Shown here: positions 3,904 to 41,300 of the stretch, one piece after another | How positions within the stretch are numbered: the first letter of the stretch is position 1 | Layout of the letters: every line of letters begins with the position of its first letter | DNA from: Thraustochytrium sp. TN22 | Taxonomy: Eukaryota > Sar > Bigyra > Thraustochytrida > Thraustochytriidae | Length of the DNA: 64,000 nt | Assembly (NCBI GenBank): GCA_013306675.1 | Contig: JABLUY010000030.1 | Location: forward strand, 42,557 to 106,556 | Direction: 5' to 3' | Translations under genes and position numbers: made by a program | The notes under the pieces: model-generated | Database searches by the model: none | Seen by the model: only the letters and a program-made list of their open reading frames with translations | Told to the model about the DNA's origin: nothing

Positions 3904-3958
3904 CTCGCGCTCCCGCTCGCTCGCTCGCTCGCTCGCTCGCCCGCCCGCTCGCTCACAG
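3904..3958. repeat. (GCTC)n promoter-proximal microsatellite
   Basis: Imperfect tetranucleotide repeat of GCTC units, about 600 bp before the bHLH start. Similar tracts occur near 14240, 15957, 31550, 34331 and 58270, each in a gene-flanking position. Confidence 0.8.
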
Positions 3959-4236
3959 GCAGGACTTGCCATCGCCGTCCGTCCCCGGCGCCCTCGTGGC
4001 TGCCGTCAGCGTCCACTTCACAGTAGTCCATGGCCGGGCGCGCGTCCTCAGCGTCCACTCCCGCCGTCACGCCCTCGCGTTGCCGCCAGCCTCCCAGCCC
4101 GAGGTCCCGCGCATCGAAGCGCGTCCCTCTCTGCTCTGCATCGTCCCAGGCCGCTCCCGCTCGCCGCCCAGACCCTCGTCGTGCGCCGCAGAATTCCTCT
4201 GCCGCCGGCGCCTGCGCTCTCGGCTCCATACCATCG

Positions 4237-4345
4237 CCACTCTCCACCTCTCCACCTCTCCACCTCTCCATCTCTCCATCTCTCCGTCTCCAGCTCCAGC
4301 TCCATCTCCATCTCCAGCTCCAGCTCCACCTCCACCTCGGCGGCG
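4237..4345. repeat. CT-rich tandem repeat (CTCCAC/CTCCAT/CTCCAG)
   Basis: Hexamer-like pyrimidine-rich repeats, first CTCCAC then CTCCAT then CTCCAG, in the presumed 5' UTR or promoter of the bHLH gene. Confidence 0.8.
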
Positions 4346-4523
4346 CGGAGGGACCGGGAGCGGCGGTCCCGGCGCGCGGCGGCCGAGCAAGCAGGCGAGC
4401 AAGTCGAAGCGAGCAAGCAAAGTGGATTCCGTCGCGCGGCGGCGTGCTCGGGCGTGCTCGGCGCGCGAAACGGGCGCGGGGCGGGCGCGGGGCGGGCGGC
4501 GGGGCGGGCGGCGGCGCGGCCGC

Positions 4524-5162
4524 ATGCTGCCCGGCGCGCGGCTGCCAGTGCCGTACGCGGCCGGCGGCTTCGGGGGCGGGGCCATGGCGCCGGCTCTTGC
4601 GCACGGCCAGGGCGGCGCGCGGCCGGCGGCGCACAAGAAGCGCGACCCCAAGCGCCGCGAGCGCAAGTACGAGCGGGAGAAGCGCAGGCGCGACGTCGTG
4701 TCGCGCCAGTTTGATGAGATTTGCGCCATGCTCAGCATCGAGGTCGGCGCCGTGGACCGCACGGCTGTGCTCGAGGAGCTGCTCAAGGCGCTGCGCAAGA
4801 AGAACGAGGCACAGCGCCGCGCGCGCGAGGGCATGCCGCCCGGCACGCCCTCGCCGCAGCAGCAGCAGCAGCGCCGCCTCAAGTCCGAGGCCGCCACCAG
4901 CAGCCCGACCTCGCCGGCCTCCTCCTTCTCCCCGGCCCCGAGCTCGGGCGGCCGCAGGAGAAGCTCCAGTCTCGGCGCCATCGCCGCGTCCTCTTGCAAC
5001 ACGGTCGCCGGCCTCGGCCCGCGTGGGAGCGCCGGCGCCGCGCCGCCGCCGCCGCCCTCGGGCATCTCCGGCGGCGACGGTCTCTACTCCTCGGCTCTCG
5101 ACGACCTCGAGTCTGAGCTCACGCTCAGTGGGACGGGTCAGCTCTTCGACGATCTCGAGTAA
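4524..5162 (+). CDS. Basic helix-loop-helix transcription factor
   Basis: 212 residues from the ATG at 4524; the frame is open further upstream but that part is low complexity. A bHLH domain lies at about residues 33-95: a Lys/Arg-rich basic region (KRRERKYEREKRRRD) runs into helix 1 (QFDEICAML), a short loop with AVDR, and helix 2 (TAVLEELLKALRKKNE). Glu in the basic region (RERKYEREKR) fits E-box contact residues of the family. The C-terminal half is Ser/Pro-rich and ends in an acidic segment (DDLESELTLSG, then FDDLE), a plausible activation tail. Presumably nuclear; target genes cannot be deduced. It ends 300 bp before the convergent MsrB gene, with a CTAGCTAG motif 26 bp after the stop. 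Confidence 0.82.
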   Translation: MLPGARLPVPYAAGGFGGGAMAPALAHGQGGARPAAHKKRDPKRRERKYEREKRRRDVVSRQFDEICAMLSIEVGAVDRTAVLEELLKALRKKNEAQRRAREGMPPGTPSPQQQQQRRLKSEAATSSPTSPASSFSPAPSSGGRRRSSSLGAIAASSCNTVAGLGPRGSAGAAPPPPPSGISGGDGLYSSALDDLESELTLSGTGQLFDDLE

Positions 5163-5356
5163 ACCATGTGTGAACCAGCCATGTCACCCTAGCTAGCAAA
5201 TCATACCGTAGCGTAGTAGAATAACGCAAGAAGGCAAAGAAAGATTGTACCCCTGCTCAGCGCCGCCCTATTCTTTTCTTTTTTTTTTTCGTTCTTGGCA
5301 AGCCGTCGCGCGCGATCTCGTGTCGGCGACGATTGAGGCTTGGGTCGTCATCTTCA

Positions 5357-5413
5357 CAGGTCTCTCGCATTGCTCACAACCTTTTTCTGTCGACGCGGAG
5401 AGCGAGAGACCTG
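5357..5413 (-). promoter_or_regulatory. Stem-loop in MsrB 3' UTR, candidate SECIS element
   Basis: Perfect 12-bp inverted repeat (arms 5357-5368 and 5402-5413, 33-base loop with an A5 run) about 50 bases after the final MsrB stop. On the transcript, TGA lies just 5' of the helix and TGA directly 3' of it, and a short outer helix (TTGGTC with GACCCAA, one bulge) can form. This resembles the helix-internal loop-helix layout of eukaryotic SECIS elements. However, the 5' quartet is not a textbook ATGA directly abutting the helix, and the conserved A residues lie on the 3' side of the loop. Candidate only. Confidence 0.3.
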
Positions 5414-5462
5414 CATGGTCAGACCAAAACGGGACGGCGAGTCGAGTCGAGTGGGTCTCAAA

Positions 5463-6089
5463 TCACTGGCTCGCTGTTGCTGCCACCTCCGCCGTCGCCG
5501 CGACAAAGCGCAGCGACAGCGAGAGGACTCAGTGGCGCCAACGTGCGTCTGGATGCGCATCCCCCATCGTGCGCGCGTCCTCAAAGGCGTGGCCCAGAAA
5601 CAGCTCGCAGCCGCCGCAGTACACCTCAAACACCTCGCACGTGTAGCCATTGTAGCCAGCGGCGTTGACGCGGAGCAAGGCGCCCTCCTCCGCCTCGGAG
5701 CGAAACGAGGGCCACCGGCAAGGCCCGCGGAACTTGTCCCGCGACGTGTACAGCAGCCGGTCACACCGTGCGCACAGGTAGCTGCCCGTGCGCCAGTGGT
5801 CGCGCAGGTCCTCGTGCGTGACCACGTCCGAGACAAGTTCAAGGTCGTCCTCGATCCTCTTGGTCAGCGGGCGCGCGCTGATGCGGAAGAAGTTCTCGCG
5901 GTCCTCCAGCGTCACCTCCTCGTACCGCGCGTACCTGCGCGCCTTGGGCTCCAGCAGCGCCAGGCTCGCCGGCTCCGCCGGCTCCGAGTTGGCGCCCTGG
6001 CAGCTGCCGGCGCGTCGCGGCCGCTTCGTGGGCCGCCCCGGCCCACCGCCGGCCGCCTCCGCCGCGTCGCGGGCGCTGCCTCGCGCCAT
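5463..6089 (-). CDS. msrB: Methionine-R-sulfoxide reductase B, probable selenoprotein (in-frame TGA as Sec)
   Basis: MsrB/SelR domain with both zinc CxxC pairs (CARC and CGGC), the WPSF motif and GHAFED. A conventional reading stops at the TGA 5531-5529, exactly where MsrB enzymes carry the catalytic Cys or Sec: the frame reads WRH-TGA-VLSLSLRF, matching the family pattern R-[Cys/Sec]-x-x-S-x-SLxF, and stays open for 21 codons to a second TGA at 5465-5463. I therefore read the first TGA as selenocysteine (residue 187 of 208), as in animal MsrB1. The enzyme reduces methionine-R-sulfoxide in proteins with thioredoxin-type reductants. The start is uncertain: ATG at 6089 is used; an in-frame ATG at 6161 would add 24 residues. 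Divergent from the TTL gene with only ~114 bp between starts, so the two probably share a promoter. Confidence 0.82.
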
Positions 6090-6203
6090 GGGGCGTGCGA
6101 GCGAGCAGTGGGACTCGGTCTGCAGGCCGCGCAGGTCGCGCGCGCCCGTGCTGGCGTGCATGCCAGAACCCCATCTCTCACCTCAGCCGCGCGCCGCGCC
6201 ACC

Positions 6204-7406
6204 ATGCGGCCGCGCAGCGGGCTGGCAGCGGCGGCGGCGGCCGCCCGCCAGCGCCAGCAGGACCGCGCCGCGCGCTCCGGCGCGCCCACGGCGGCCTCGA
6301 GCGGCGTCGGCTCCGCGGTCCAGGTCGCCAACCACCACCACGACGCCAAGAACAAGGACGCCGACGAGGACAAGAAGCCCTCCAAGACGTCCGCGTCGTC
6401 CGGCGAGGCCAGCAACAGCGACAGCGACAGCGACAGCAGCAGCGGCAGCAGTGGCAGCAGCAGCAGCAGCAGCAGCAGTGGCGAGGAGGAGTCCTCCGAC
6501 GAGGACCTGGAGAGCGCCAACGCGACGAGCACCGGGCTCGCCAGGCGACGCCCGCACGCCGGCCAGGGCCAGAGCAAGCCGGGCAGGCCACGCGACCCGC
6601 TGCACGGCAAAAAGAAGAAGCGAACCGCGAGGCCATGGCCCAGAGACCTTGCCGACCTGCGCAGGATGCTGCTGCGCACGAGCAGCCGCAGACGCCTGGG
6701 GTTGGCGGCCGCGGCCGTGGCCGTCGTGCTCCTGGGCCTCGTGCAGCTCGTGGTCTTCTCCGACCTCCTCGCCGGCGGCTCGTACGAGGCGGACGCCGGC
6801 GCGCTCTCGGACGAGCAACGCCTGCTGAAGCGCCTCGACGTGAATCGGGGTCCGGCGAGCTGGGCGCTGCGGCCAGACCGCGAGCGACGCGCCATGTCGG
6901 CGTCCGCGCTTACGACGGCTCGCGAGCGCTTCGGCGGGGCGTCCAAGTTGCACATCGCGCGGCAGATCACCAACCCCGAGATCAACGCCAAGGCCAACAA
7001 GCGCACCTTTGGGTGCCTGCGCGACGAGTGCCGCGGGCTGGCGCTCGAGGACCTGACGAACCGCAAGTGGAAGATGATGTACAAGAACGCCAAGACGCAG
7101 TCGGCGACGAACGCCACGGTCTTTCGCGACAATCTCAACGTGCGGCTGACCTGGCTCGAGTCCGACACCACGGAGCTCACCAAGCTCAAGAAGGAACGCC
7201 CCGAGACCTTTGAGCAGGCCTACACGCAGCAAATCGGCAAGACGTACCTGAGCGTGCTGGACGGCGCCGACGCCATCGGCGGCAACAAGGGCCAGCAGCT
7301 GCGCGGCAAGCAGGCCTTTGTGCGGCGACGCAGCCTGGTGCGCGACGTGCCGAGCCTCGTGGGCGACGCTCTGGCCGGCCTGCCTGCCGCTGAGGACGGC
7401 GCCGAG

Positions 7407-14169: not shown

Positions 14170-16506
14170 GCTGCCGTACCGGACCGGAGCGCCGAGCGGA
14201 GTGGCGCGACCTCGCTCGCGACCCTCTCCCTCCCTCACTCCCTCGCTCGCTCGCTCGTGCGCCTGCGCGCGCGCCGCTCAAGCTCTCCCTCGCGCGTGGC
14301 GCGTGCGTCGAGTTCCGCCTTGCCGTGAGAGAGAGAGAAAGAGAGCGAGAAAAAGCTTGCTCGCGATGCTCGATGCCGGCCCGTTCAAACCCGCGCCAGC
14401 GACTCGCGCCGCGCTCTGCCGCTCGCGCCCGGGCGCCGCGCCGGCCGCGGGCTCGCGCTCTGCCGCCGCTCGCGCCGCCGCCGCGCCTCGCCGCGCCGCG
14501 CCGCGCAGGTCGCGGTTCTGCTGCCGGGCGCGGCGCCGCGGACCCGGCGCGCTAGGCCGCGCCTACCGCAAACGCTAGGTCCAGGCGCCGCGTGCAGGCC
14601 CTCGCCCCAAACCTCGCCGCCGCCGGCCTGCCGCCGCGCTGCGCTGCCCTGGCTCGCGTCGCGCCGCGCGGCAGGCGCCGCGTGCAGTGCGGCGCGGCGT
14701 CTGCGCTGAGCGTCGCGAGCCTGGCCTGCCAGCGCCGCTCGACGGCCTCGGTTTGAATTTTGGCCTGCGGCGGCGGCTTGGGGACTTGGACCAGGCTGCA
14801 CTCCGTCAGCGCGCTCGCGGCCGTCTCCCCGCCGGCCAGACCGTGCTGCGGCCAGCGCCGCGCCGCGCCGCGCCGCGCCGCGCCGCCGCGGGCTTGGGGA
14901 CGAGCACGCGCGCGCGGCCGCCGCTGGCCTTTTGCCGCGCGCAGGGCGCGTGCGGGGTCAGCTTTTGCCGCTACGAGTCGCGGGTCAGGTCGGGTCGCTG
15001 CGCTACGCCCGCGGCGTCGCGCTCGCAGCCTGAGCTGCGCGTCGCCGCAGGGACTCCACCGCGGCGTCGGCGGCGGCGTCGGCGGCGTCGCGCGGCGTCG
15101 CGTCCTCCGCGCCGCGCACGGCGTCCAGGTCCTGCTCCGCGTCCACCTCGCGCCCGTCCTTGGCTTGCAAATTCTACGCTACGCCCGCGTCGCGCTCGCA
15201 GCTGCGCGTCGAAACTTGGTCGCGTCGTTTTTGTCGTCGTCGTTTTGTCGTCGTCTTCGTTGTCGTCGCGCGGCGCCGTATCCTCCGCGCCGCGCACGGC
15301 GCCCAGGTCCTGCTCCGCGTCCACCTCGCGCCCGTCCTTGGCTTGCAAATTCTACGCTACGCCCGCGTCGCGCTCGCAGCTGCGCGTCGAAACTTGGTCG
15401 CGTCGTTTTTGTCGTCGTCGTTTTGTCGTCGTCTTCGTTGTCGTCGCGCGGCGCCGTATCCTCCGCGCCGCGCACGGCGTCCAGGTCCTGCTCCGCGTCC
15501 ACCTCGCGCCCGTCCTTGGCTTGCAAATTCTACGCTACGCCCGCGTCGCGCTCGCAGCTGCGCGCCGAAACTTCGTCGCTTCTTTGTCGTCTTTGTCGTC
15601 TTTGTCGTCGCGCGGCGCCGTATCCCCCGCGCCGCGCACGGCGTCCAGGTCCTGCGCCGCGTCCAGCAGCTCCAGCTCGCGCCCGTCCTTGGCTCGCAAA
15701 CGCTGCGACGATGCCCCGTTCCGCCGCCACTGGCGGTTCCCCGAGCGCGGCTGCGGGCGGTCCCCCGGCGCGGCCCCCCTCGGCGGAACCCTGCCCGGAA
15801 CCCCCGAGGCGGGTCAGGCGGCGCGCGCGGGGGGCAGCTGTGTGGGGGGCGGGCCCAGTGGCCGCGGGGGGCAGCGCGCAGGTCCGCCGCCCCGTTCAAA
15901 TTTGCAAGCGCGGAAAGCAGCCAAGCCCTCGCCGCGCGGCGCCGCGCAGAGGCGCTCGCTCGCTCGCCCGGGCCCGCGCGCGGCCCGCCGCCGGACGCGA
16001 CCCGCGGCCGCGCACGCCGCCGCCGCCGCGCGTGGCTCGCGCGGGTCCTGCCGAGTCGAGTCATTTCATTTCAATCGTTCATTTCATCAACTCAAGAGGC
16101 CGGGCCGGAGCGCGCCGCGGAGCGCCGCGTGCGCGCGCGCGCGCGGCCCGCGACCAGCCAGCCCGCGAGCGAGCGGACGCCGCCCGAGCGACGGACGCGC
16201 CGGGGCGAGCGGGGACGGGCTCTGCGCGTTGGAGCGCGGCCGCGGGCGCTGCCGGCGGGCCGCCGGCGCGCGGGCCAGGGCGCAGGCGCTGCGACCCGGA
16301 CCTGGGCGGCTGGCACGCGCCGACGTCCGTCGCGTTCCATCCATCCATCCATCCCTCTATCCTCGATCCATCCGTCCAGGAGAGGAGCTGCTCCGCCGGC
16401 CGCCGGCGCTGCGGCTGCTGGCCTGCGTGCGCGAGCGCCGGAGGTCTCGCCGCCCGGCCGCGCGCCCGGCCGCGCGCGGCCCCCGGCCGCCCGCCCCGCG
16501 GCCGCC
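14170..16506. other. 2.3-kb divergent intergenic region, very GC-rich
   Basis: It lies between the minus-strand DKALR-repeat gene and the plus-strand 945-residue gene. It has long open frames only because of extreme GC content. It contains a GAGA/GCTC tract (14220-14350), the ~178-bp tandem array at 15005-15715 and CG-rich low-complexity stretches up to the start at 16507, plus an ATCC run near 16338-16354. No gene supported. Confidence 0.55.
15005..15715. repeat. Tandem repeat, ~178-bp unit, about four copies
   Basis: Unit landmarks (ACGCCCGCGTCGCGCTCGCA) recur at 15181, 15359 and 15537, exactly 178 bp apart, with a diverged copy at about 15005. Copies differ by GTCGTC expansions and small deletions. 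The array ends about 790 bp before the next start codon. Confidence 0.88.
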
Positions 16507-19344: not shown

Positions 19345-19556
19345 CCCGCGGCACTGTGTTGTGAGAACCCCCTGATCCGATCGATGGTGGCATCATGACC
19401 CTGTTTTGTAAAGCAATGATTGCCCGCACGTTTTTCAGCATTCGCCTCATCCGTGGCTGCATCGTCGCAGGCGCACTTGCGCATTCTTCCTTGCGCGCGC
19501 TTCGTTTCGTGTTGACGATTCGCTTCGACAAAACGATTCATTTCGATGGGAAACCT

Positions 19557-19660
19557 CGTTGCGAGATGACTCTTTGTTGCGAGATGACCTTTCGTTGCGA
19601 GATGACCTTTCGTTGCGAGATGACCTTTCGTTGCGAGATGACCTTTCGATGCGAGAGGAC
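19557..19660. repeat. 18-bp minisatellite, left of the element island
   Basis: About six tandem units of CTTTCGTTGCGAGATGAC with minor variants. The unit is related to the 20-bp minisatellite on the other side of the element cluster (both share CTTTCG, then TTG-GAG). Confidence 0.88.
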
Positions 19661-19719
19661 ACTCCATTTTGAGACAGGTCTTCACATTTCGAGACCACAC
19701 GTCACTTCGCATTTCGCAT

Positions 19720-22015
19720 ATCCCAATCACACCTCTATGCTTACTCGTATCCGCCTACCACGCGGGGGTCCCTCGGTGACGCCCGGCACAGGGGGCACTA
19801 AAGCGTATTAAGAGGGTACTTTACTCCCGATTTGCTCCAAAAAAGTGGCCTAGAGTCTGGCGAAGTTAGTTCCGCATTCGATCAAAAACGCAGCGATGGG
19901 GCCGAGCTTGAAGAGGCCCACTCGAAGCGACCCAAGGCTCCTGCCCCCTATTCATTTTGGCCGAAGGCGTGGTGGTTAGGATGAGATGAGCTCGGCAGTT
20001 CGCCCAGAGCGGCTTTGGGGGGAGCTCGCGCGCGACTTCGTCGCGGAGCGCGCTGGAGCCGCAGGCGCTGCGGCGCGCGGCTGCAGGCGGCCCTGGCGGG
20101 TGCCTTGTGCCTGCTCTCAGCTCGCACGCCCCTGCCGCAGCGCTTGGACGTGGAGTCGGGCCCGCACTGCGACATCATGGCATCGGCGAGGCCTAACCAC
20201 CGCGTGGAGGACGACAGCGACAGCGACAGCGACAGCGAGTTCGTGCCCCTGGACAAGCGGGACACAGGGGACGAAGACGAAGAAGGAGAGGAGCTTGGCG
20301 ACGAGGATGCTCGTGCTGAGGCCGCTGCGCAGCAAGACTTCGAAGACATACTTGCGTTGGTCGACGAACCGACGCGTGGTGCGAGTGCATGTTCGAGGTC
20401 GGCCTCATTCAGCACAAGACCGTTCCGGGGCTCGCAGTCTCGCCGGATGGAGTCGCTCGCGTCCGGCTTCCAGGCGCGGAGTGCGACGCATCGTCAGTAC
20501 TATGCAGCGTCGAGATCAAGACGCGCGTCGCGCCTGGAGGCGCGGTAGACGCACGTATCGTGAGCACCCAGATGAACACGTGGGGGACGAGACTTGGTGG
20601 AAGGCCATACCTGCCGAGCACCGCGCGCAAGTCTTGCACCAAGCTGTGGTCCTCCAAATCGATCACGTGCTCTACGTTGCTGCCAGCACGAGTTCGTGTT
20701 TGTACGCCTGCCTCGTTGAAGTGCCTCCGGACGCCCGGCTCGCCATGGAGCGCGCTCTGAAACCGTGGGCGGACAAGCTCACGACATGGGCGCACCAGAG
20801 CATCGACAGCGGGTGCGCCGCCCAAGCCACCTGCCATCTTCGGCGAGGAGGAGGGGGCGGTGCTGAGCTCGCACTTCCGGCTGTGGCGCGCCATGCGCAA
20901 GCTTGTCGCTCTGAAGGGGCCCATGCGGCCCGTGCATGTCATCAAGTGCTTACCGCAGGAGCTATACAACGTCGCAAAGGGCGGCGTCGACGGAAGCACA
21001 CAGTACGTGGAGCAGATCACCAACACGCAGTGCATGAATCTGAGCTGCGACCAGAACATCGCGTTGCGCACGTACAAGCAGCTCGTTGTCAACGCCATCG
21101 TGGTCTACCGCTACTTACAGGCTGCGAGGAAGAGCAACCTCGAAGACAGCGACGGGCTAAAGGCCCTCCGCGACAAGGTGAACCGCTCTGAAGCGCTCAG
21201 CACTGTCTCGTTCCGCCTCACTGTCGACATGGTCCGTCACGTCTACAGGAGCAGGCAGCTCGATACGGCGCAGGTGGAGTTCAACATGCAGCCAAGCATG
21301 CCCAAGCCCACTGGGCTCACCAGGGAAGCGGCGAGGGACCTCGTGACCGCCGGTAAGCGCAAGCGAACCCCCGAGTTGCAGAAGTTCTTCAACCACGGCC
21401 AAGCCCGCGACATCCGCCTCGATGCCGCACTGCAACATGACTCAGAGGCAGCGGGAAAGGCATCCTTCAACGCCAACAACAAGAGGATTCCCGCCAAGCG
21501 GCTCTGCGTCATCTGCGGCAAGCAAACGCACCGTCGTTGCACCATCTGCGGTGTGCCTCTGCACGTGTTCATGAGAAAGAATGAACGCACAACCTGCTTT
21601 TCCAAGTGGCACACGCGCGTGCGCGTCGAGCCTCACGAAGGCTTCAAGAAGCGCAAGACAAACGTCAACGGAACACCTTCGCCCATTTGCCTCGATCATG
21701 TCGATTCGAGCAGCGCCAGTGCCTCGTCCGGTACCCCTACAGCGCAGAGCAGGAACGACCACGTAGCCCAAGCCAGCTACACCGACACCCCATCAAGCCA
21801 TAGTTCAAGATCCTCTCGCAGCAGCCTCAGCACGAGTCCATCGTGCCCTTGATGCAGCCCAAGTTGGCCTCAGCATCCGCACAGGCCAGTCGGAAGTGAC
21901 CAACACTTTACGCTTCCATACAAACCCAGTAGTTGAAAGTTCCAAAAATGATTAGAATCATGATAGCAACAGGTCAGTCGAGCGCAAGCAGGAGAGCCGA
22001 TTTACTAGGGATAAT
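19720..22015 (+). mobile_element. YqaJ-piggyBac element, copy 1
   Basis: 2,296 bp. The same unit occurs twice more in inverse orientation, and the boundaries were set by where the three copies start and stop matching. The left end begins ATCCCAATCAC and the right end finishes ACTAGGGATAAT; read inward from each end, both show an AT-rich start followed by CCC, a very short imperfect terminal inverted repeat. The left flank is unique minisatellite DNA; the right flank is the 45-bp linker. Internally it carries a broken coding region with an acidic N-terminus, a YqaJ-like nuclease and a piggyBac-type C-terminus with zinc ribbon. Confidence 0.85.
20177..21852 (+). pseudogene. Broken transposase-like gene: YqaJ-type nuclease plus piggyBac C-terminus (copy 1)
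   Basis: Coding signal moves between frames. (1) 20177 to ~20370: an acidic leader (MASARPNHRVEDDSDSDS) ending EDILALVDEPTRG, like piggyBac N-termini. (2) ~20371 to ~20570, next frame: FEVGLIQHK, LAVSPDG and CSVEIKTR, the D...ExK core of YqaJ/lambda-exonuclease-type PD-(D/E)XK nucleases. (3) ~20570 to ~20830, third frame: IPAEHRAQVLHQA and DHVLYVAAS, the second half of that fold. (4) ~20830 to 21852: YNVAKGGVDGSTQ, matching the piggyBac block that carries the third catalytic Asp, then NAIVVYRYL, and a zinc ribbon CVICG...CTICGVPLH...CFSKWH. The blocks holding the first two piggyBac catalytic aspartates were not found. The shifts fit single-base indels; no GT-AG intron repairs them that I could see. 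Confidence 0.7.
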
Positions 22016-22060
22016 ATCCCAATCCCATCGCCCTAGACGGAGTTTAATCAGGATAGCCAT
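22016..22060. repeat. 45-bp linker S (first copy, at the palindrome centre)
   Basis: Identical 45-bp segment found at every element junction to the right of copy 1. It starts ATCCCAATCCC and ends GGATAGCCAT, so its first nine bases match the element's left end. It contains a TTAA (22044-22047) and CCCTAGA. Here it forms the loop between inverted copies 1 and 2. Confidence 0.9.
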
Positions 22061-24356
22061 ATTATCCCTAGTAAATCGGCTCTCCTGCTTGCGCTCGACT
22101 GACCTGTTGCTATCATGATTCTAATCATTTTTGGAACTTTCAACTACTGGGTTTGTATGGAAGCGTAAAGTGTTGGTCACTTCCGACTGGCCTGTGCGGA
22201 TGCTGAGGCCAACTTGGGCTGCATCAAGGGCACGATGGACTCGTGCTGAGGCTGCTGCGAGAGGATCTTGAACTATGGCTTGATGGGGTGTCGGTGTAGC
22301 TGGCTTGGGCTACGTGGTCGTTCCTGCTCTGCGCTGTAGGGGTACCGGACGAGGCACTGGCGCTGCTCGAATCGACATGATCGAGGCAAATGGGCGAAGG
22401 TGTTCCGTTGACGTTTGTCTTGCGCTTCTTGAAGCCTTCGTGAGGCTCGACGCGCACGCGCGTGTGCCACTTGGAAAAGCAGGTTGTGCGTTCATTCTTT
22501 CTCATGAACACGTGCAGAGGCACACCGCAGATGGTGCAACGACGGTGCGTTTGCTTGCCGCAGATGACGCAGAGCCGCTTGGCGGGAATCCTCTTGTTGT
22601 TGGCGTTGAAGGATGCCTTTCCCGCTGCCTCTGAGTCATGTTGCAGTGCGGCATCGAGGCGGATGTCGCGGGCTTGGCCGTGGTTGAAGAACTTCTGCAA
22701 CTCGGGGGTTCGCTTGCGCTTACCGGCGGTCACGAGGTCCCTCGCCGCTTCCCTGGTGAGCCCAGTGGGCTTGGGCATGCTTGGCTGCATGTTGAACTCC
22801 ACCTGCGCCGTATCGAGCTGCCTGCTCCTGTAGACGTGACGGACCATGTCGACAGTGAGGCGGAACGAGACAGTGCTGAGCGCTTCAGAGCGGTTCACCT
22901 TGTCGCGGAGGGCCTTTAGCCCGTCGCTGTCTTCGAGGTTGCTCTTCCTCGCAGCCTGTAAGTAGCGGTAGACCACGATGGCGTTGACAACGAGCTGCTT
23001 GTACGTGCGCAACGCGATGTTCTGGTCGCAGCTCAGATTCATGCACTGCGTGTTGGTGATCTGCTCCACGTACTGTGTGCTTCCGTCGACGCCGCCCTTT
23101 GCGACGTTGTATAGCTCCTGCGGTAAGCACTTGATGACATGCACGGGCCGCATGGGCCCCTTCAGAGCGACAAGCTTGCGCATGGCGCGCCACAGCCGGA
23201 AGTGCGAGCTCAGCACCGCCCCCTCCTCCTCGCCGAAGATGGCAGGTGGCTTGGGCGGCGCACCCGCTGTCGATGCTCTGGTGCGCCCATGTCGTGAGCT
23301 TGTCCGCCCACGGTTTCAGAGCGCGCTCCATGGCGAGCCGGGCGTCCGGAGGCACTTCAACGAGGCAGGCGTACAAACACGAACTCGTGCTGGCAGCAAC
23401 GTAGAGCACGTGATCGATTTGGAGGACCACAGCTTGGTGCAAGACTTGCGCGCGGTGCTCGGCAGGTATGGCCTTCCACCAAGTCTCGTCCCCCACGTGT
23501 TCATCTGGGTGCTCACGATACGTGCGTCTACCGCGCCTCCAGGCGCGACGCGCGTCTTGATCTCGACGCTGCATAGTACTGACGATGCGTCGCACTCCGC
23601 GCCTGGAAGCCGGACGCGAGCGACTCCATCCGGCGAGACTGCGAGCCCCGGAACGGTCTTGTGCTGAATGAGGCCGACCTCGAACATGCACTCGCACCAC
23701 GCGTCGGTTCGTCGACCAACGCAAGTATGTCTTCGAAGTCTTGCTGCGCAGCGGCCTCAGCACGAGCATCCTCGTCGCCAAGCTCCTCTCCTTCTTCGTC
23801 TTCGTCCCCTGTGTCCCGCTTGTCCAGGGGCACGAACTCGCTGTCGCTGTCGCTGTCGCTGTCGTCCTCCACGCGGTGGTTAGGCCTCGCCGATGCCATG
23901 ATGTCGCAGTGCGGGCCCGACTCCACGTCCAAGCGCTGCGGCAGGGTCGTACGAGCTGAGAGCAGGCACAAGGCACCCGCCAGGGCCGCCTGCAGCCGCG
24001 CGCCGCAGCGCCTGCGGCTCCAGCGCGCTCCGCGACGAAGTCGCGCGCGAGCTCCCCCCAAAGCCGCTCTGGGCGAACTGCCGAGCTCATCTCATCCTAA
24101 CCACCACGCCTTCGGCCAAAATGAATAGGGGGCAGGAGCCTTGGGTCGCTTCGAGTGGGCCTCTTCAAGCTCGGCCCCATCGCTGCGTTTTTGATCGAAT
24201 GCGGAACTAACTTCGCCAGACTCTAGGCCACTTTTTTGGAGCAAATCGGGAGTAAAGTACCCTCTTAATACGCTTTAGTGCCCCCTGTGCCGGGCGTCAC
24301 CGAGGGACCCCCGCGTGGTAGGCGGATACGAGTAAGCATAGAGGTGTGATTGGGAT
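22061..24356 (-). mobile_element. YqaJ-piggyBac element, copy 2 (inverted)
   Basis: 2,296 bp, the reverse complement of copy 1 over its whole length. By eye I found only two base differences from copy 1 (both near 23946-23951). Together with copy 1 and linker S it forms a near-perfect palindrome with 2.3-kb arms. Confidence 0.85.
22224..23899 (-). pseudogene. Broken YqaJ-piggyBac transposase-like gene (copy 2)
   Basis: The same coding segments and the same frame breaks as copy 1, at mirrored positions. The intact C-terminal frame, with the piggyBac GVD block and zinc ribbon, is 22224-23216. The nuclease halves lie between about 23240 and 23705. The shared breaks mean the damage predates amplification. 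Confidence 0.7.
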
Positions 24357-24401
24357 ATCCCAATCCCATCGCCCTAGACGGAGTTTAATCAGGATAGCCA
24401 T
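24357..24401. repeat. 45-bp linker S (second copy)
   Basis: Identical to the linker at 22016-22060 and in the same orientation on the plus strand, lying between copies 2 and 3. Its TTAA is at 24385-24388. Confidence 0.9.
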
Positions 24402-26697
24402 ATTATCCCTAGTAAATCGGCTCTCCTGCTTGCGCTCGACTGACCTGTTGCTATCATGATTCTAATCATTTTTGGAACTTTCAACTACTGGGTTTGTATG
24501 GAAGCGTAAAGTGTTGGTCACTTCCGACTGGCCTGTGCGGATGCTGAGGCCAACTTGGGCTGCATCAAGGGCACGATGGACTCGTGCTGAGGCTGCTGCG
24601 AGAGGATCTTGAACTATGGCTTGATGGGGTGTCGGTGTAGCTGGCTTGGGCTACGTGGTCGTTCCTGCTCTGCGCTGTAGGGGTACCGGACGAGGCACTG
24701 GCGCTGCTCGAATCGACATGATCGAGGCAAATGGGCGAAGGTGTTCCGTTGACGTTTGTCTTGCGCTTCTTGAAGCCTTCGTGAGGCTCGACGCGCACGC
24801 GCGTGTGCCACTTGGAAAAGCAGGTTGTGCGTTCATTCTTTCTCATGAACACGTGCAGAGGCACACCGCAGATGGTGCAACGACGGTGCGTTTGCTTGCC
24901 GCAGATGACGCAGAGCCGCTTGGCGGGAATCCTCTTGTTGTTGGCGTTGAAGGATGCCTTTCCCGCTGCCTCTGAGTCATGTTGCAGTGCGGCATCGAGG
25001 CGGATGTCGCGGGCTTGGCCGTGGTTGAAGAACTTCTGCAACTCGGGGGTTCGCTTGCGCTTACCGGCGGTCACGAGGTCCCTCGCCGCTTCCCTGGTGA
25101 GCCCAGTGGGCTTGGGCATGCTTGGCTGCATGTTGAACTCCACCTGCGCCGTATCGAGCTGCCTGCTCCTGTAGACGTGACGGACCATGTCGACAGTGAG
25201 GCGGAACGAGACAGTGCTGAGCGCTTCAGAGCGGTTCACCTTGTCGCGGAGGGCCTTTAGCCCGTCGCTGTCTTCGAGGTTGCTCTTCCTCGCAGCCTGT
25301 AAGTAGCGGTAGACCACGATGGCGTTGACAACGAGCTGCTTGTACGTGCGCAACGCGATGTTCTGGTCGCAGCTCAGATTCATGCACTGCGTGTTGGTGA
25401 TCTGCTCCACGTACTGTGTGCTTCCGTCGACGCCGCCCTTTGCGACGTTGTATAGCTCCTGCGGTAAGCACTTGATGACATGCACGGGCCGCATGGGCCC
25501 CTTCAGAGCGACAAGCTTGCGCATGGCGCGCCACAGCCGGAAGTGCGAGCTCAGCACCGCCCCCTCCTCCTCGCCGAAGATGGCAGGTGGCTTGGGCGGC
25601 GCACCCGCTGTCGATGCTCTGGTGCGCCCATGTCGTGAGCTTGTCCGCCCACGGTTTCAGAGCGCGCTCCATGGCGAGCCGGGCGTCCGGAGGCACTTCA
25701 ACGAGGCAGGCGTACAAACACGAACTCGTGCTGGCAGCAACGTAGAGCACGTGATCGATTTGGAGGACCACAGCTTGGTGCAAGACTTGCGCGCGGTGCT
25801 CGGCAGGTATGGCCTTCCACCAAGTCTCGTCCCCCACGTGTTCATCTGGGTGCTCACGATACGTGCGTCTACCGCGCCTCCAGGCGCGACGCGCGTCTTG
25901 ATCTCGACGCTGCATAGTACTGACGATGCGTCGCACTCCGCGCCTGGAAGCCGGACGCGAGCGACTCCATCCGGCGAGACTGCGAGCCCCGGAACGGTCT
26001 TGTGCTGAATGAGGCCGACCTCGAACATGCACTCGCACCACGCGTCGGTTCGTCGACCAACGCAAGTATGACTTCGAAGTCTTGCTGCGCAGCGGCCTCA
26101 GCACGAGCATCCTCGTCGCCAAGCTCCTCTCCTTCTTCGTCTTCGTCCCCTGTGTCCCGCTTGTCCAGGGGCACGAACTCGCTGTCGCTGTCGCTGTCGC
26201 TGTCGTCCTCCACGCGGTGGTTAGGCCTCGCCGATGCCATGATGTCGCAGTGCGGGCCCGACTCCACGTCCAAGCGCTGCGGCAGGGGCGTGCGAGCTGA
26301 GAGCAGGCACAAGGCACCCGCCAGGGCCGCCTGCAGCCGCGCGCCGCAGCGCCTGCGGCTCCAGCGCGCTCCGCGACGAAGTCGCGCGCGAGCTCCCCCC
26401 AAAGCCGCTCTGGGCGAACTGCCGAGCTCATCTCATCCTAACCACCACGCCTTCGGCCAAAATGAATAGGGGGCAGGAGCCTTGGGTCGCTTCGAGTGGG
26501 CCTCTTCAAGCTCGGCCCCATCGCTGCGTTTTTGATCGAATGCGGAACTAACTTCGCCAGACTCTAGGCCACTTTTTTGGAGCAAATCGGGAGTAAAGTA
26601 CCCTCTTAATACGCTTTAGTGCCCCCTGTGCCGGGCGTCACCGAGGGACCCCCGCGTGGTAGGCGGATACGAGTAAGCATAGAGGTGTGATTGGGAT
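24402..26697 (-). mobile_element. YqaJ-piggyBac element, copy 3
   Basis: 2,296 bp, direct repeat of copy 2. One base difference was noticed (A for T near 26070, changing Thr to Ser in one frame). With the linkers on both sides it sits between two TTAA sites (24385-24388, 26711-26714) and shows a perfect 15-bp inverted repeat TCAGGATAGCCATAT next to them. This is the only copy for which a classical piggyBac reading (TTAA plus inverted repeat) works. Confidence 0.85.
24565..26240 (-). pseudogene. Broken YqaJ-piggyBac transposase-like gene (copy 3)
   Basis: Mirrors copy 1, with the same three frame changes. The intact C-terminal frame with the piggyBac block and zinc ribbon is 24565-25557. The acidic leader begins at 26240. 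Confidence 0.7.
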
Positions 26698-26742
26698 ATG
26701 GCTATCCTGATTAAACTCCGTCTAGGGCGATGGGATTGGGAT
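26698..26742. repeat. 45-bp linker S (third copy, inverted)
   Basis: Exact reverse complement of the linker at 22016-22060. It closes the element cluster on the right; beyond it lies minisatellite DNA. The linker is therefore present in both orientations. Confidence 0.9.
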
Positions 26743-26762
26743 ATTTCAAGACACACACGCCC

Positions 26763-26945
26763 TTTCGCTTTTGAGGCGCTACTTTCAAAAGACATACACG
26801 CCCTTTCGCTTGTGAGGCGCTACTTTCGCTTGTGAGGCGCTTCTTTCGCTTGTGAGGCGCTTCTTTCGCTTGTGAGGCGCTACTTTCGCTTGTGAGGCGC
26901 TACTTTCGCTTGTGAGGCGCTACTTTCGCTTGTGATGCGCTTCTT
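26763..26945. repeat. 20-bp minisatellite, right of the element island
   Basis: Seven near-perfect tandem units of CTTTCGCTTGTGAGGCGCTA at 26803-26942, plus an earlier copy at 26763 as part of a larger ~40-bp duplication. It lies in the presumed 3' UTR of the transferase gene, 20 bp past its stop. Confidence 0.9.
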
Positions 26946-26964: not shown

Positions 26965-28131
26965 TCAATCATCCGCCTCCTCCGCTCCATCGCCGGTGGC
27001 TGCTCTTGGTGGCGCCTTTTTGCTATCGGCACGCGCGCGCTTCATCTCAAGACGACGCGCCATCCGCGCCCGCTTTTTGGCCTGCGACTTGGACATGGAC
27101 GAGCCAGCACCGCCCGTTTCTGAGCTCCCACTCGCGGCAGGACTCGACGCGCTACTGCTGCCCATGTCGCCTGGTGCTCTTGGTGGTGCCATTGGCATGG
27201 CTGCTGCAGCAGCGGCTGTCGACGCCGGAGCTCCCGCGCGCGCGGCGCTTGCCTTCTCCTCGTCTTGGCGCTGCTTGACGTAGGGCTCAATGAGTTCGTT
27301 CGCCGGCGTGCGTGCCAACGAGAGGTAGTCTATGCGGTGGCCGGTGGCCGCGCGGAGCCGTGCGAGGAAGGCAGGCCGCCGCACGGAGCGCGCGCCCAGG
27401 CGCTCCTTGTAGGGGAGGATCATGCCGAGGTCCCAAAGAGTGATGCCTTTGGAGTAGAGAAACGCTCCGGTGGCGAGCATCTGCACGGACCCTGCGCTGT
27501 CGACGCGTGAGAAGCCCGATAGCGCCGTGTAACAGGCGCCCACGACGTAGCCCACCTCGCCCGCCACGAGTTGGTCGCCCTGCCACAGCTCGAACGAATG
27601 CACAAAGGCGCGGCCCTGGTCGCTGCCCTGCGCACCACGCGCCTGCATTTCACGAAAGGCCACCACGATCGGCGGGTAGAACCAAGACTCGCCATGCTGC
27701 CGGATGATGCCCTCGCACACCGCGTCGAACGCCTGGTCCATGCTCAGCTCAAACCGCCGCGCCTTCTTTCGCGCGGACTTGGGCACGTGCATGTCGCGCA
27801 GCTCCAGCAGGCACCGCGTGCGGTGCAGCTTCGGCAGCAGCGCGTGCTGTCCACCCCCGAGCGACTGGCACATGGGCAGATACCCCTGCCGCATGAGCGC
27901 GCCCACAAAGTCCGGGTCAAACGAGAGCGCCCAGTTGAAATCGCTCCCGTTCCGCTCCGCCACCAGCCTCGTCGTCTCCTCCAGGTCCATGAACGGGTGC
28001 AGGAACGGCAGCCGCGCGAGCCACGAGTTCCTGAGCGCCACCGCCTTCGCCGCGCGCATGTGGGCCGCCATCGCGTCGCGCGTCCCTGCCTCGCCGCGGC
28101 CGCCCGCGCTCGTGCTTGCGCTCGCGCTCAT
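26965..28131 (-). CDS. Leucyl/phenylalanyl-tRNA-protein transferase family protein
   Basis: 388 residues from ATG 28131 (GAGATGA). The open frame upstream is only antisense to the TPR-TTL gene. Central residues ~125-265 match the Aat fold: WFYPPIVVAF, SFELWQGDQLVAGEVGY, YTALSGF, AGSVQMLATG, and WDLGM with YKERLGAR. Bacterial Aat moves Leu or Phe from tRNA to N-terminal Lys/Arg, making an N-degron for ClpS/ClpP. A eukaryotic copy could act in the cytosol or an organelle. There is no clear transit peptide; the C-terminal ~100 residues are Ala/Ser/Pro-rich and end in a basic stretch (KKRARMARRLEMKRAR) resembling a nuclear-localisation or RNA-binding tail. Head-to-head with the TPR-TTL gene. Confidence 0.85.
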   Translation of the reverse strand: MSASASTSAGGRGEAGTRDAMAAHMRAAKAVALRNSWLARLPFLHPFMDLEETTRLVAERNGSDFNWALSFDPDFVGALMRQGYLPMCQSLGGGQHALLPKLHRTRCLLELRDMHVPKSARKKARRFELSMDQAFDAVCEGIIRQHGESWFYPPIVVAFREMQARGAQGSDQGRAFVHSFELWQGDQLVAGEVGYVVGACYTALSGFSRVDSAGSVQMLATGAFLYSKGITLWDLGMILPYKERLGARSVRRPAFLARLRAATGHRIDYLSLARTPANELIEPYVKQRQDEEKASAARAGAPASTAAAAAAMPMAPPRAPGDMGSSSASSPAASGSSETGGAGSSMSKSQAKKRARMARRLEMKRARADSKKAPPRAATGDGAEEADD

Positions 28132-28806
28132 CTCGGCCCGCGAGGGCCGCCGCGCCGCCGCCGCTGCCGCCGAGCCCTGCGCTGCGCCGCGCCGCGCCGC
28201 GCCGCCCGCGCGCGCGCCTCCGCCCCGCGCCTGCCCTCGCCCCCGCACCGCGCCGCGCCGCGCCCCGCGCGCGGCTTCGGTTTTGCCGCGCCGCGCGCAG
28301 CTCGCCGTCGCCGGACTCGGACCAGCGCGACCTCGGGCTCCAGCTCGGCCTCGGCTCGCGCCTGCCGCGGCGCTCCTGCCCGGCTGCTGCGCGTCGGGCG
28401 CGCCTCGGAGTCCGCGTCGCAAGTCTTCACGGCGAGTGCTTGCATGCCGTCGTCCTGCTCGAGCGTCTCGTCTCGGGCGAGGCGCTGCGAGACGCTGGTG
28501 GACTGCCCTGTGCGCTCCTCCCTGTGCGCCTGCGCGTGGTGGCTCGCGCTCGTCGTGCTCGTCGCGCTCGTCGCGCTCTGCACGCTCTGCACGCTCGTCG
28601 CACTCTGCACGCCCGTCGCGCTCTGCACGCCCGCCGCGCTCTGCAGGTTCGTGGCGCTCTGCAGGTTCGTGGCGCTCTGCACGCGCGGCGTGGAGTGTGG
28701 AGTGGCCGCGGGACGAGGACGAGGCGACCACGGCGCCACCAACCAGCTCCAGAAGCTGGGGCTGCAGCACCATTCCCCATTCCGGCAACGCCGCGGCGCG
28801 AGGAGC
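28132..28806. promoter_or_regulatory. Divergent intergenic region with 18-bp tandem repeat
   Basis: 675 bp between the transferase (-) and TPR-TTL (+) starts. At 28543-28690 there is a degenerate tandem repeat with period 18 (GCTCTGCACGC / GCTCTGCAGGTTCGTG variants). No gene supported. Confidence 0.6.
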
Positions 28807-30576
28807 ATGAGCGCGCAGGCGGAGGCGGCGGACGCGCTGAGCGAGCGCGGCGACTGGGCCGGCGCGGCGCGGCTGTACGAGGCGAGCCTGGCGAGCGCGC
28901 CGGACCTGCTGCATGCGCTCGCCAACTACGCCGTGCTGCTGACGGAGATCGCGGACAGCGGCGGCGCCGATGCGGTCGGCGGCGTGAGCGCGCTGCGCGC
29001 CAAGGCGACCGACCTGTACGCGCGGGCGCTGCGCGCCAAGCCGGACTGGTTCGACGGGCACTACAACCTGGCCAACCTGCTCGCGGAGAGCGGCCCCGAG
29101 GGCGAGGCCGCGGCCATCGAGCACTACCGCGAGGCGCTCAAGCTGGAGCCGGAGGACGCCGACGCGCACAACAACCTGTCCATCTGCCTGCTGCGCGCGG
29201 GCCAGCTCGAGACGGCGCTCTTGCACGCCAAGGCGGCGGTGCGCATCGACAAGGCGCGGCCCGCGTTTCTGGCCAACATCGCGGAGCTCTACAACGCCAC
29301 GGGCGACGCCAAAAAGGCCATCTTCTTCGCGCGCAGGAGCGCCGACCCGCAGGCGCTCCTGCTGCTCGCCTCGCTGCACGCGCAGCAAGGCGACCTGGAC
29401 GGGGCGCGCGCTGCGCTGCAGCAGCTCGTGGACGCCGACGCGCACGCCGACAACCTGCCCGCGCGCCTGCGGCTCTTCTCGCTGCTCGCCGCCAGGCCGG
29501 CCTGGCGCCAGGACGCGCTTGACCTCGCGGCGCGCACCGCCGACCTCTACGCGGCGCGCTGCCCGGCGGACACGGTCGGCGCCGCGGCGCTGCGGGCGCT
29601 CAGCGGCGCGCCGCACGAGGCGACCGACGCCCACGACGAGGCGCCGCTCTCGCACGCCGCCGAGATGTGCGTGCTGCACCTCAAGCTCGACGACGCCAGC
29701 GCGCTCGCGCACAAGTGCCTCGTGCACGAGCGGCTCGTGGCGGCCGGCTCCACGGACATCGCGCCGCGCACGAGCATCTGCGCCACGGACGAGGAGCTCG
29801 CCGCCGCGCTGGCCAAGGTGCCTGAGGGCACGCTCATGTACGTCAAGGACCCGGCCGTGCAGCGCGGCCAGGGCATCCGCATCGTGCGCACGCCCGTGCC
29901 CGCCGGCGAGGTGCGCGACTGGGTGCCTGCCGGCCGCCGCGTGTGCCTGCAGGAGGCCGTCACGCCCGCGCTCCTGGACGGCCGCAAGTTCGGCGTGCGC
30001 ATGCACGTCGCCGTCGTGGCGGACCCGGCCTCCGCCGCCGCCGCTCGCGTCTTTGTCAGCCGCGACGGCATCCTCACCAAGTGCGGCAAGCCGTACGCGC
30101 ACGACGACACGGGCGCGCTCGCGCAGATCACCTGCACCAGCGTGCAGCGCGCCGAGGCCGGCTTCGACCGCGAGGCCGTCAAGGGCCCGGCCGCGCAGCT
30201 CTGGGACGCCTTCGACGACGCGCTGCCGCTCATCGACGACGCCGTCCTGCGCTCCGTGCGCGCCGTTGCCGCCGAGCTCTATGTTCCGCCTGCCGCCGCC
30301 GACGGCGCCGGCGATGCCGCCGCCGCCGCGCGGCCGCCGCGCGCGCAGTTCTTCGGCTACGACTTTTGCTTTGACGAGGCTGGCCGCCCCGTCTTCATCG
30401 AGGCCAACATCTCGCCGCAGTTCCAGGACGCCAAGAGCCTCGCGTCGCTCCGCTCCCGTCTCGCGCCGGACCTCATCAACTCCGTGCCGCTGCTGCTGGC
30501 GCCCGACGCGGCCGAGGCCTTCGCCGAGCCTGCGCGCGGCTGGAAGTTCGTCGGCACCACCGCCAATGCAATGTAA
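28807..30576 (+). CDS. TPR protein with C-terminal TTL-like ATP-grasp domain
   Basis: 589 residues from ATG 28807. Residues ~1-190 are TPR repeats (motifs such as HYNLANLLAESG, AHNNLSICLLRAGQLETA, LANIAELYNATGDAKKA). Residues ~320-565 form a TTL-like ATP-grasp domain: MYVKDPAVQRGQGIRIV supplies the ATP-contacting Lys/Gly loop, KFGVRMHVAV the central strand, and GYDFCFDE and FIEANISPQF the metal-binding Glu and Asn. The catalytic set looks complete. TTL-type enzymes ligate amino acids (Tyr, Glu or Gly) to protein tails, usually tubulin; the TPR part probably binds substrate or partner proteins. Substrate is unknown. Its stop lies 16 bp from the convergent SPT4 stop. Confidence 0.83.
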   Translation: MSAQAEAADALSERGDWAGAARLYEASLASAPDLLHALANYAVLLTEIADSGGADAVGGVSALRAKATDLYARALRAKPDWFDGHYNLANLLAESGPEGEAAAIEHYREALKLEPEDADAHNNLSICLLRAGQLETALLHAKAAVRIDKARPAFLANIAELYNATGDAKKAIFFARRSADPQALLLLASLHAQQGDLDGARAALQQLVDADAHADNLPARLRLFSLLAARPAWRQDALDLAARTADLYAARCPADTVGAAALRALSGAPHEATDAHDEAPLSHAAEMCVLHLKLDDASALAHKCLVHERLVAAGSTDIAPRTSICATDEELAAALAKVPEGTLMYVKDPAVQRGQGIRIVRTPVPAGEVRDWVPAGRRVCLQEAVTPALLDGRKFGVRMHVAVVADPASAAAARVFVSRDGILTKCGKPYAHDDTGALAQITCTSVQRAEAGFDREAVKGPAAQLWDAFDDALPLIDDAVLRSVRAVAAELYVPPAAADGAGDAAAAARPPRAQFFGYDFCFDEAGRPVFIEANISPQFQDAKSLASLRSRLAPDLINSVPLLLAPDAAEAFAEPARGWKFVGTTANAM

Positions 30577-30592
30577 CATCACTACGTAGTCC

Positions 30593-31134
30593 TCATGCGT
30601 TTTCATCCATGCTAACCTTCGCCAGAACCTTGCGGTTCGAGTCGCGGCAGATCTCCTGCACCTCGTCGATCGGCTCCTCGTTCACCTTGATGGCATACGT
30701 GCCCGGCGTGAAGTTTGCTGCGCATCAACATCACCCGTCAGTCTTTAATCGAGCAAGCACGCAAGCAAGACACGTAAGCCACAGCAGGGCGACGCGTGAA
30801 CGTACAGATGCGCTGCCACTTGGCCACCCAGCTTGTCTTGGGCTGCATCATGGCCACGAGTCCCTCGTAGTTCTTGGTCGTCGCGCCATCCACGATCCTC
30901 CTCTCGCCCCAGTCCAAGTGCGGGCAGTTCGGGCACCCATCATCGATAAACTGTGTCACGCGGTCAGTCAGCCCTCGCCCCGCCGCGCCCGCACTTATCC
31001 TCCTCGCGTGCGCAACCTACCTGCGCGTACGTCTTGACGAGCATGCAGACCATGCAGGCGCGGAGGCCCTTCATCTCGTCCGGCACGCTGTACTTGCCCA
31101 CCTGCTCGCCGCCGCCCATCTCATCGTCCGACAT
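30593..31134 (-). CDS. SPT4: Transcription elongation factor SPT4 (three exons)
   Basis: Spliced gene, exons 31134-31021, 30950-30806 and 30717-30593, giving 127 residues. Intron 1 (70 bp) starts GTAGGT and ends CACAG; intron 2 (88 bp) starts GTACGT, has a CTGAC branch-like site and ends GCAG. Exon 1 gives LRACMVCMLVKTYAQ with the first zinc CxxC; exon 2 gives GCPNCPHLD (second CxxC), ATTKNYEGLVAMMQP and SWVAKWQRI; exon 3 continues NFTPGTYAIKV. These are diagnostic of SPT4, the small zinc subunit that pairs with SPT5 (DSIF) to control RNA polymerase II pausing and elongation. Size is close to human SPT4 (117). It is the only gene here whose introns I can show. Confidence 0.93.

Positions 31135-40780: not shown

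Positions 40781-41300
<520 letters not shown>

Follow-up and report, generated by a model that had tools for sequence, protein, structure and literature searches.

The transposon copies in the window (the whole 64,000-nucleotide stretch of DNA that was analysed) are short relatives of a longer element in the same genome, in which an exonuclease-like domain lies between the second and third catalytic aspartates of a DDD transposase (hereafter D1, D2, and D3). Our best explanation has three parts, which we consider quite probable when taken jointly: The window element was amplified recently as a non-autonomous internal-deletion derivative of a DDD cut-and-paste transposon; the long form of this transposon has the order acidic leader, Cys/His knuckle, D1, D2, RecE/YqaJ-type PD-(D/E)XK exonuclease, D3, and Cys/His ribbon; and the short copies, probably together with the frame-broken long copies, would depend on an intact relative for their movement in trans.

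Three nested short copies in the window

Self-comparison of the window revealed three copies within 19717-26700, of which the first is on the + strand and the other two are on the - strand, and the nested array that they form spans 19718-26744. Its features are listed here by position.

19718..19721, no strand: left-hand ATAT target-site duplication of copy 1, paired with 26741-26744
19722..22017, + strand: copy 1, element positions 1-2296, left end CCCAATCACACC...
20177..20371, + strand: acidic leader MASARPNHRVEDDSDSDSDSE..., ATG at 20177, ending at the 1773-bp deletion junction
20372..20373, + strand: 2-bp filler at the deletion junction; missing relative to locus L034: 3192-4964
20374..20579, + strand: SPDG- and EIKT-containing nuclease block, read in the frame of 20320; family matches come from the longer copy
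20580..20810, + strand: remainder of the nuclease block, containing HRAQVLHQ and read in the frame of 19980; ends at about the frame change common to four longer copies
20811..21852, + strand: piggyBac-like C-terminal block, frame of 20761; D3 in KGGVDGSTQ
21505..21612, + strand: Cys/His ribbon CxxC..CxxC..CFxxxH, a motif without Pfam match above cut-off
22018..24354, - strand: copy 2, complete 2337-bp short form, inside the ATAT of copy 1
24359..26695, - strand: copy 3, complete 2337-bp short form
26700..26740, + strand: right end of copy 1 (...GATGGGATTGGG), element positions 2297-2337, separated from the rest by the nested insertions
26741..26744, no strand: right-hand ATAT target-site duplication of copy 1

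The last 41 bp of copy 1 lie at 26700-26740 because copies 2 and 3 hit its internal ATAT near the right end. An earlier, sequence-only reading of the locus had given 20177..21852 as the extent of a transposon gene; this interval is the coding part of copy 1, whereas the short-form unit as a whole measures 2337 bp. All of the coding blocks that this reading had listed (acidic leader, SPDG...EIKT, HRAQVLHQ, KGGVDGSTQ, and CxxC..CxxC..CFxxxH) are present in copy 1, spread over three frames, with the D3 codon being GAC at 20989-20991. Its description of a gene that joins a YqaJ exonuclease to a piggyBac C-terminus holds as far as the joining goes, given that the nuclease sits in one gene with D3 and the ribbon, but membership in piggyBac is not established.

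A longer relative encodes D1 and D2 upstream of the nuclease

At locus L034, we found a 4127-bp long relative (2542-6668) that adjoins another copy. Its positions 2542-3191 align to short-form positions 1-650, after which 1773 extra bp follow, and its positions 4965-6668 align to short-form 653-2337 at 98.2% identity with 19 further bases. According to the alignment, the short form thus corresponds to the long form lacking 1773 bp (replaced by 2 bp of filler) and a further 19 bp. The larger loss, at 20372..20373 in copy 1, comprises the knuckle, D1, D2, and the first nuclease acid (L034 3192-4964), while the smaller one, near 20579/20580, closes the SPDG/EIKT block; the frame jumps between leader and nuclease and in mid-nuclease result from these two losses.

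Positions 2805-5801 of L034 constitute a single 998-aa open frame that contains, in order, the acidic leader, a CxCGSxxHxRxxxxxCP knuckle, D1 (residue 328, within TLVIDDELVGSR, VIDDELVGSR), D2 (residue 406, within LVAADRGYSKK), and the nuclease, with GSMNE at 642, SPDG at 679, EIKT at 703, and QVLHQ at 748. D3 (KGGVDGSTQ) and the CxxC..CxxC..CFxxxH ribbon follow beyond a frame change. The nuclease of the long form is thus located between D2 and D3.

The 1773-bp piece occurs at 99-100% identity in four places, namely, C81 (which is L034), C109, C394, and C33, the first three of which are ~100% identical within it. Beyond the full-length matches, 20 of the 61 left ends listed were examined further, and two of these hit a contig end after ~47 bases. 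All four long copies have in common a third frame change upstream of D3, as read completely in L034 and from 121-base reads in C109, C394, and C33, and the codon-position base composition changes frame at about the same place. The C33 copy contains an additional TAG, and an intact full open reading frame of the window's own family was not seen among these four copies.

Divergent families with open frames

Using the D1-D2 part of L034 as a query against the genome, we found divergent relatives in C239 (42% identity, 1213-aa open frame), C232 (32%, 1248 aa), C151 (28-33%, 1227 aa), and C48 (74%, a 625-aa frame with the first part only), as well as weaker matches in C189, C73, and C11. When the query was extended by 54 residues past D2, through GSMNE to SPDG, the matches in C239, C232, and C151 ran to at most 2 residues from its end, and their scores rose from 397 to 470 bits (+73), from 214 to 248 (+34), and from 34 to 62 (+27 as listed), respectively. 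The C11 match reached position 616 of 620 and rose from 25 to 39 bits, in a 3580-aa frame that is matched only after D2, and the C48 match did not extend into the nuclease under the extended query.

A whole-genome search with the RecE-like exonuclease profile phrog_434 named two places, the gene on C78 and C239:14502-14951 (E 1.3e-4), the latter directly after the DDE part and within the same 1213-aa frame; the window family, C232, and C151 were not named in this search. Further along in that frame, the 200 bases at C239:15110-15309 read VRPVHVFRCGAQHLYKEIKGGVDGNTQFVESI (KGGVDGNTQ), and 35 of 66 residues in the D3 region are identical to L034. These 200 bases are the part of C239 that was read as sequence, with D1, D2, and the nuclease placed by match positions, and C232 and C151 are known from match positions alone. 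On this basis, the data suggest that C239 has D1, D2, nuclease, and D3 in a single unbroken frame; the D2-nuclease junction is present in several families, and the order D2-nuclease-D3 in two. A collection of viral contigs yielded no relatives of the C-terminal part or of Trichoplusia ni piggyBac, and none of 104 pattern matches to the N-part in that collection was confirmed.

Identity of the nuclease

The nuclease piece of L034 matched phrog_434 at E 4.3e-5 (E 0.0012 with the whole N-part of L034) and the exonuclease profile phrog_149 at E 0.011. In Pfam, whose YqaJ model the sequence-only reading had named as a check, the four window pieces matched no family above cut-off (only zf-RING_16 was listed, E 0.33), and the nuclease of the longer copy reached E 0.0081 with PF09588 (YqaJ) at 16.9 bits, below the cut-off of 22. 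In the PDB, the sole match of the nuclease piece at E<=10 was the LHK exonuclease 3syy (E 0.24), over EVGLIQHKTVPGLAVSPDG, a stretch that covers the active-site strand; a search with the whole 814-aa N-part at E<=1 returned three unrelated chains and no nuclease. BLASTP of the nuclease block against the genome's own YqaJ gene (C78) was not significant (E 0.20).

L034 carries GSMNE, SPDG, EIKT, and QVLHQ, i.e., the active-site pattern E, D, ExK, Q, whose residues we take to be the catalytic ones; the first E is assigned by inspecting the motifs, and MAFFT, in a pairwise alignment, puts the first acid elsewhere. The window copies lack GSMNE and hence the first nuclease acid. With the RecE/YqaJ/lambda-exonuclease nucleases (phrog_434, PF09588, and LHK-Exo 3syy), the longer copy shares GxxxE, SPDG, EIK, and Q..Q, but differs from them in that its nuclease is embedded in a transposase. 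The spacing between SPDG and EIKT is 20 residues in the element, compared to 8 in the genome's own YqaJ gene.

These data bear on two different accounts of the nuclease block. The sequence-only reading had reported that D1 and D2 are absent, which is true of the window copies but is caused by the 1773-bp deletion, and had placed the nuclease where these residues would be, which is contradicted by L034 with both of them upstream of the nuclease. Its proposal that a nuclease had replaced or joined the DDE core survives in its second half: The idea of replacement arose because an internally deleted copy was read, and because the longer relatives encode all three catalytic residues plus the nuclease, the latter joined the transposase. 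A complete DDE triad without nuclease, the counterexample that this reading had named, was not found; a triad with the nuclease was found instead. We therefore give practically no credence to the account in which the nuclease took over from the D1/D2 half and the gene in the window encodes a functional chimeric protein. It could draw on the position of the nuclease blocks directly after the leader in the window copies and on the greater abundance of the short form (120 left ends versus 4 copies with the missing piece), but the frame of the short form changes three times and its first nuclease acid is missing, the divergent open frames retain D1/D2 together with the nuclease, and the presence of the 1773-bp piece, with D1 and D2, in L034 and three more copies rules out a replacement of the DDE core. 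Alternatively, the block might resemble a nuclease by chance, as the PF09588 score under cut-off, the lack of a PDB nuclease for the whole N-part at E<=1, and the BLASTP result against the YqaJ gene would allow. We judge this very improbable in view of the phrog_434 and phrog_149 matches to L034, the independent whole-genome search that named C239 as one of only two places, and the fact that the only PDB match of the piece is a lambda-exonuclease relative, aligned at the active-site strand.

Ends, target sites, and copy number

The two ends of the element, CCCAATCACACC... and ...GATGGGATTGGG, both begin CCCAATC. For copies whose ends are exact, 35 distinct flank pairs were compared, 32 of which displayed an identical 4-bp target-site duplication (ATAT in 27, ATAG in 2, and ATAA, CTAT, and TTAT in 1 each), and the other three were mismatched (ATAT/CTAT twice and ATAT/ATAA once). 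Every flank side of the 35 pairs reads NTAN, and no TTAA target duplication occurred among them. Outside the elements, the window comprises 56,973 bases, among which the tetranucleotide ATAT is present 10 times.

The left end is found about 120 times genome-wide (<=3 mismatches), with 0 mismatches among the 100 matches listed. Scoring of 40 of the 122 candidates in the 37.9-Mb assembly gave at least 40 full-length matches at 100% identity (rounded), and a 1676-base core was exactly identical in all 20 of the best-scoring loci. The near-identity of these copies implies recent movement.

Relation to piggyBac and to other nuclease-bearing transposons

The element resembles the piggyBac superfamily (T. 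ni piggyBac 6x67, piggyBat 9c0f, and ciliate PiggyMac) in its DDD order, in the neighbourhood of D1 (DDELVGSRAG...K.GKDGIK versus DEQLLGFRGR...KPSKYGIK), in YN..KGGVD at D3, in its Cys/His-rich C-terminus and 5'-CC ends, and in a 4-bp target-site duplication with a central TA, which is TTAA for piggyBac itself. PiggyMac cuts are described as 4-base and centred on TA (PMC3408717), and piggyBac terminal repeats as beginning CCYT (PMC10175614); in the CCCA of the element, CCC fits CCY and the fourth base differs. The element is unlike the superfamily in its ATAT/NTAN target, in having an entire nuclease domain between D2 and D3, and in lacking a match to PF13843 (DDE_Tnp_1_7). The latter model, against which the sequence-only reading had proposed to search the blocks, matched none of the window pieces, the L034 pieces, or a nuclease-free joined core, although it matched three other loci in the same genome.

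With a two-sequence piggyBac/piggyBat profile, the joined core scored 6.6 bits, a value that 0 of 1000 shuffles attained, and its best domain, at a low 4.2 bits, aligned D1 on D1. The N-part reached 5.0 bits (0/1000 shuffles), the D3 piece 4.2 bits (reached by 2/1000), the whole C-terminal part a weak 2.4 bits with GGVD on D3 (11/1000), and the D3 fragment of C239 -1.7 bits; D2 was unaligned in the matches shown. PDB searches returned no match for the joined core and, for the window C-terminal part, retroviral nucleocapsid knuckles and a TnsB at E 0.7-2.4 with no piggyBac chain. Pfam, NCBIfam, and PHROGs gave nothing above cut-off for the DDE part, where PF01609 was the only DDE model touched (E 0.009-0.03, below its cut-off). 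With neither a match to the piggyBac model of Pfam nor a TTAA target, formal membership in piggyBac is not established, and the core is best described as piggyBac-like in anatomy (motif order, termini, and stagger) and probably also in chemistry.

Some further matches stand apart from this comparison. A profile of unknown function, phrog_1321, matched 28 residues of the C-terminal block at E 4.3e-5. Matches to SgrT (E 0.0003-0.006), Sclerostin, DUF6902, and zf-RING_16 fell below curated cut-offs and were judged to be due to chance, and tblastx hits of the element to L021-L024 with the low-complexity filter off (E down to 2e-10, in all frames) were judged to be driven by composition.

Exonucleases accompany several other DDE transposons. 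Dada of Laccaria and Ectocarpus is described as having an exonuclease after the second catalytic D (PMC3706591), i.e., after D2 inside a DDE transposase as in our element, but this is a DEDDy (DnaQ-like) enzyme that precedes a DxxH motif, whereas the nuclease described here is RecE-like, of PD-(D/E)XK type, and no [CD]xxH was found between D2 and D3 of L034. KolobokE is reported to carry a lambda-exonuclease-like nuclease downstream of its transposase, in a superfamily with 5'-RR ends, TTAA targets, and a C/DxxH signature (PMC9587614); our element has CCC ends, an NTAN target, and the nuclease between D2 and D3. ISL2EU (PHIS) likewise is a DDE transposon that encodes a YqaJ-type exonuclease, which is described as a separate second ORF (PMC4482050, PMC9179366) next to a THAP/HTH transposase, with a 2-bp AT duplication and usually GG ends (PMC4482050), in contrast to the 4-bp NTAN duplication, the CCC ends, and the nuclease in the same frame as D1/D2 that we observed. 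On the features tested, the element does not fit Kolobok, Dada, or ISL2EU.

Two alternatives concern the kind of transposase and its source. It is unlikely, though a serious consideration, that the transposase comes from another DDE superfamily (Kolobok, Dada, ISL2EU/PHIS, or IS4-like), in which exonuclease partners are known. This would account for the silence of PF13843 in a genome where it finds three other genes, for PF01609 as the only DDE model touched, for PDB searches that name no piggyBac chain, and for a target other than TTAA, and the nuclease of KolobokE would provide a precedent. Against it stand the lack of C/DxxH between D2 and D3, 5'-CCC ends as opposed to the RR of Kolobok or the usual GG of ISL2EU, a duplication of 4 rather than 2 bp, a nuclease that is neither downstream of the transposase nor a separate ORF, and the piggyBac/piggyBat profile, which sets D1 on D1 at a score that no shuffle attained and, in the weak C-terminal match, GGVD on D3. 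Distinctly unlikely, in our view, is that the long element is still autonomous, with the family supplying its own transposase by bridging the frame change upstream of D3 through programmed frameshifting or a small intron. The occurrence of this frame change in all four long copies, the coding-type base composition that switches frames at that place, and the ~100% identity of the 1773-bp piece in C81, C109, and C394 speak for it, and in-frame GT-AG intron options of 34 and 55 nt were seen by eye across the frame change. Yet C239 needs no such bridging because its one 1213-aa open frame includes D3, the long host open reading frames in the window suggest few introns, and L034 differs from the window at 8 sites of the C-terminal frame, of which 5 change the amino acid and 3 are silent.

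Mobilisation and a proposed role for the nuclease

Movement in trans by an intact relative is the most economical reading of these data because the short copies lack D1 and D2, the long copies are frame-broken, and movement was recent. The 5:3 ratio of amino-acid-changing to silent differences is as expected of passengers; constraint does not appear visible in the window family at this small number of differences. The cuts of the transposase would be centred on TA and staggered by 4 nt, as with piggyBac.

RecE-type enzymes digest 5' strands from duplex ends, and the likeliest job of the nuclease is therefore at DNA ends made during excision. In the scheme that we prefer, 5'-end resection of the donor-site break would steer its repair to homologous copying, which would restore the element at the donor site and raise its copy number. 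Provided that the nuclease is active, we hold this role to be possible, at somewhat less than an even chance; the main alternative is that the nuclease trims mismatched NTAN overhangs.

In the literature searched, which includes few subscription papers and no Repbase entries, we met no piggyBac-like transposase that carries a RecE/YqaJ nuclease between D2 and D3; a prior description is therefore possible. We put at close to, but slightly under, even the prospect that these elements represent a still-mobile, undescribed piggyBac-like clade with a RecE-type exonuclease in its core between D2 and D3, conserved within a single eukaryotic genome in three or more divergent families with open frames, where one polypeptide both excises the element and resects the break at the donor site, thereby allowing the element to be copied back. 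DDE transposons have recruited exonucleases several times (Dada, KolobokE, KolobokD, and ISL2EU), and the roles given for those of Dada and KolobokD, in the parts of the sources available, are proposals rather than results. In our case, the catalytic region that houses the nuclease is that of a piggyBac-like enzyme, and enzymes of this group are described as leaving no footprint upon excision (PMC3408717). The NTAN target with its central TA bears on TTAA specificity versus the TA-centred cuts of ciliate PiggyMac, and the open-frame relatives make the role of the nuclease accessible to active-site mutation.

Genomic setting of the transposon cluster

Two long, convergent ORFs enclose the nested transposon cluster together with its flanking repeats. 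On either side of the cluster are short tandem repeats with units of 18 bp and 20/41 bp, and the cluster lies just past the 3′ end of a host ORF that matched PF03588 (E = 3e-24, residues 905-1075), the family of a bacterial enzyme, leucyl/phenylalanyl-tRNA protein transferase. Elsewhere in the window, we observed a tandem array in the first part of a long open frame ending at 19344, and a GCA run just past the 3′ end of a minus-strand ORF (41301-44810).

Features of the window
15086-15665: tandem array, 178-bp unit, 3.3 copies
19556-19660: short tandem repeats, one side of the cluster
26748-26945: short tandem repeats, other side of the cluster
26968-30606 (-): host ORF, 1213 aa, leucyl/phenylalanyl-tRNA protein transferase domain
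41111-41288: perfect GCA run, 59 units

Repeated nesting and relatives within the assembly

At other loci of the assembly (L027, L028, L029, L032, L034, and L044), the element was found nested repeatedly at its own right-end ATAT, yielding 45-bp end fragments as well as tandem or head-to-head element arrays.

The Pfam piggyBac model gave above-cut-off matches in three further genes of the same assembly (G000), which may be separate, domesticated piggyBac genes.

Further genes matching the piggyBac model
L021, contig C398: long open frame, 850 aa
L022, contig C16: long open frame, 946 aa
L023, contig C76: long open frame, 1016 aa

A stand-alone YqaJ gene was also observed (L024, contig C78; 713-aa frame, PF09588 E = 1e-21). 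At C11:136458-137114, the sequence weakly resembles (24%, 38.8 bits) the transposase stretch from after D2, the second catalytic aspartate, to the nuclease motif SPDG; this match lies within a 3580-aa open frame that may represent a host gene or else a larger element.
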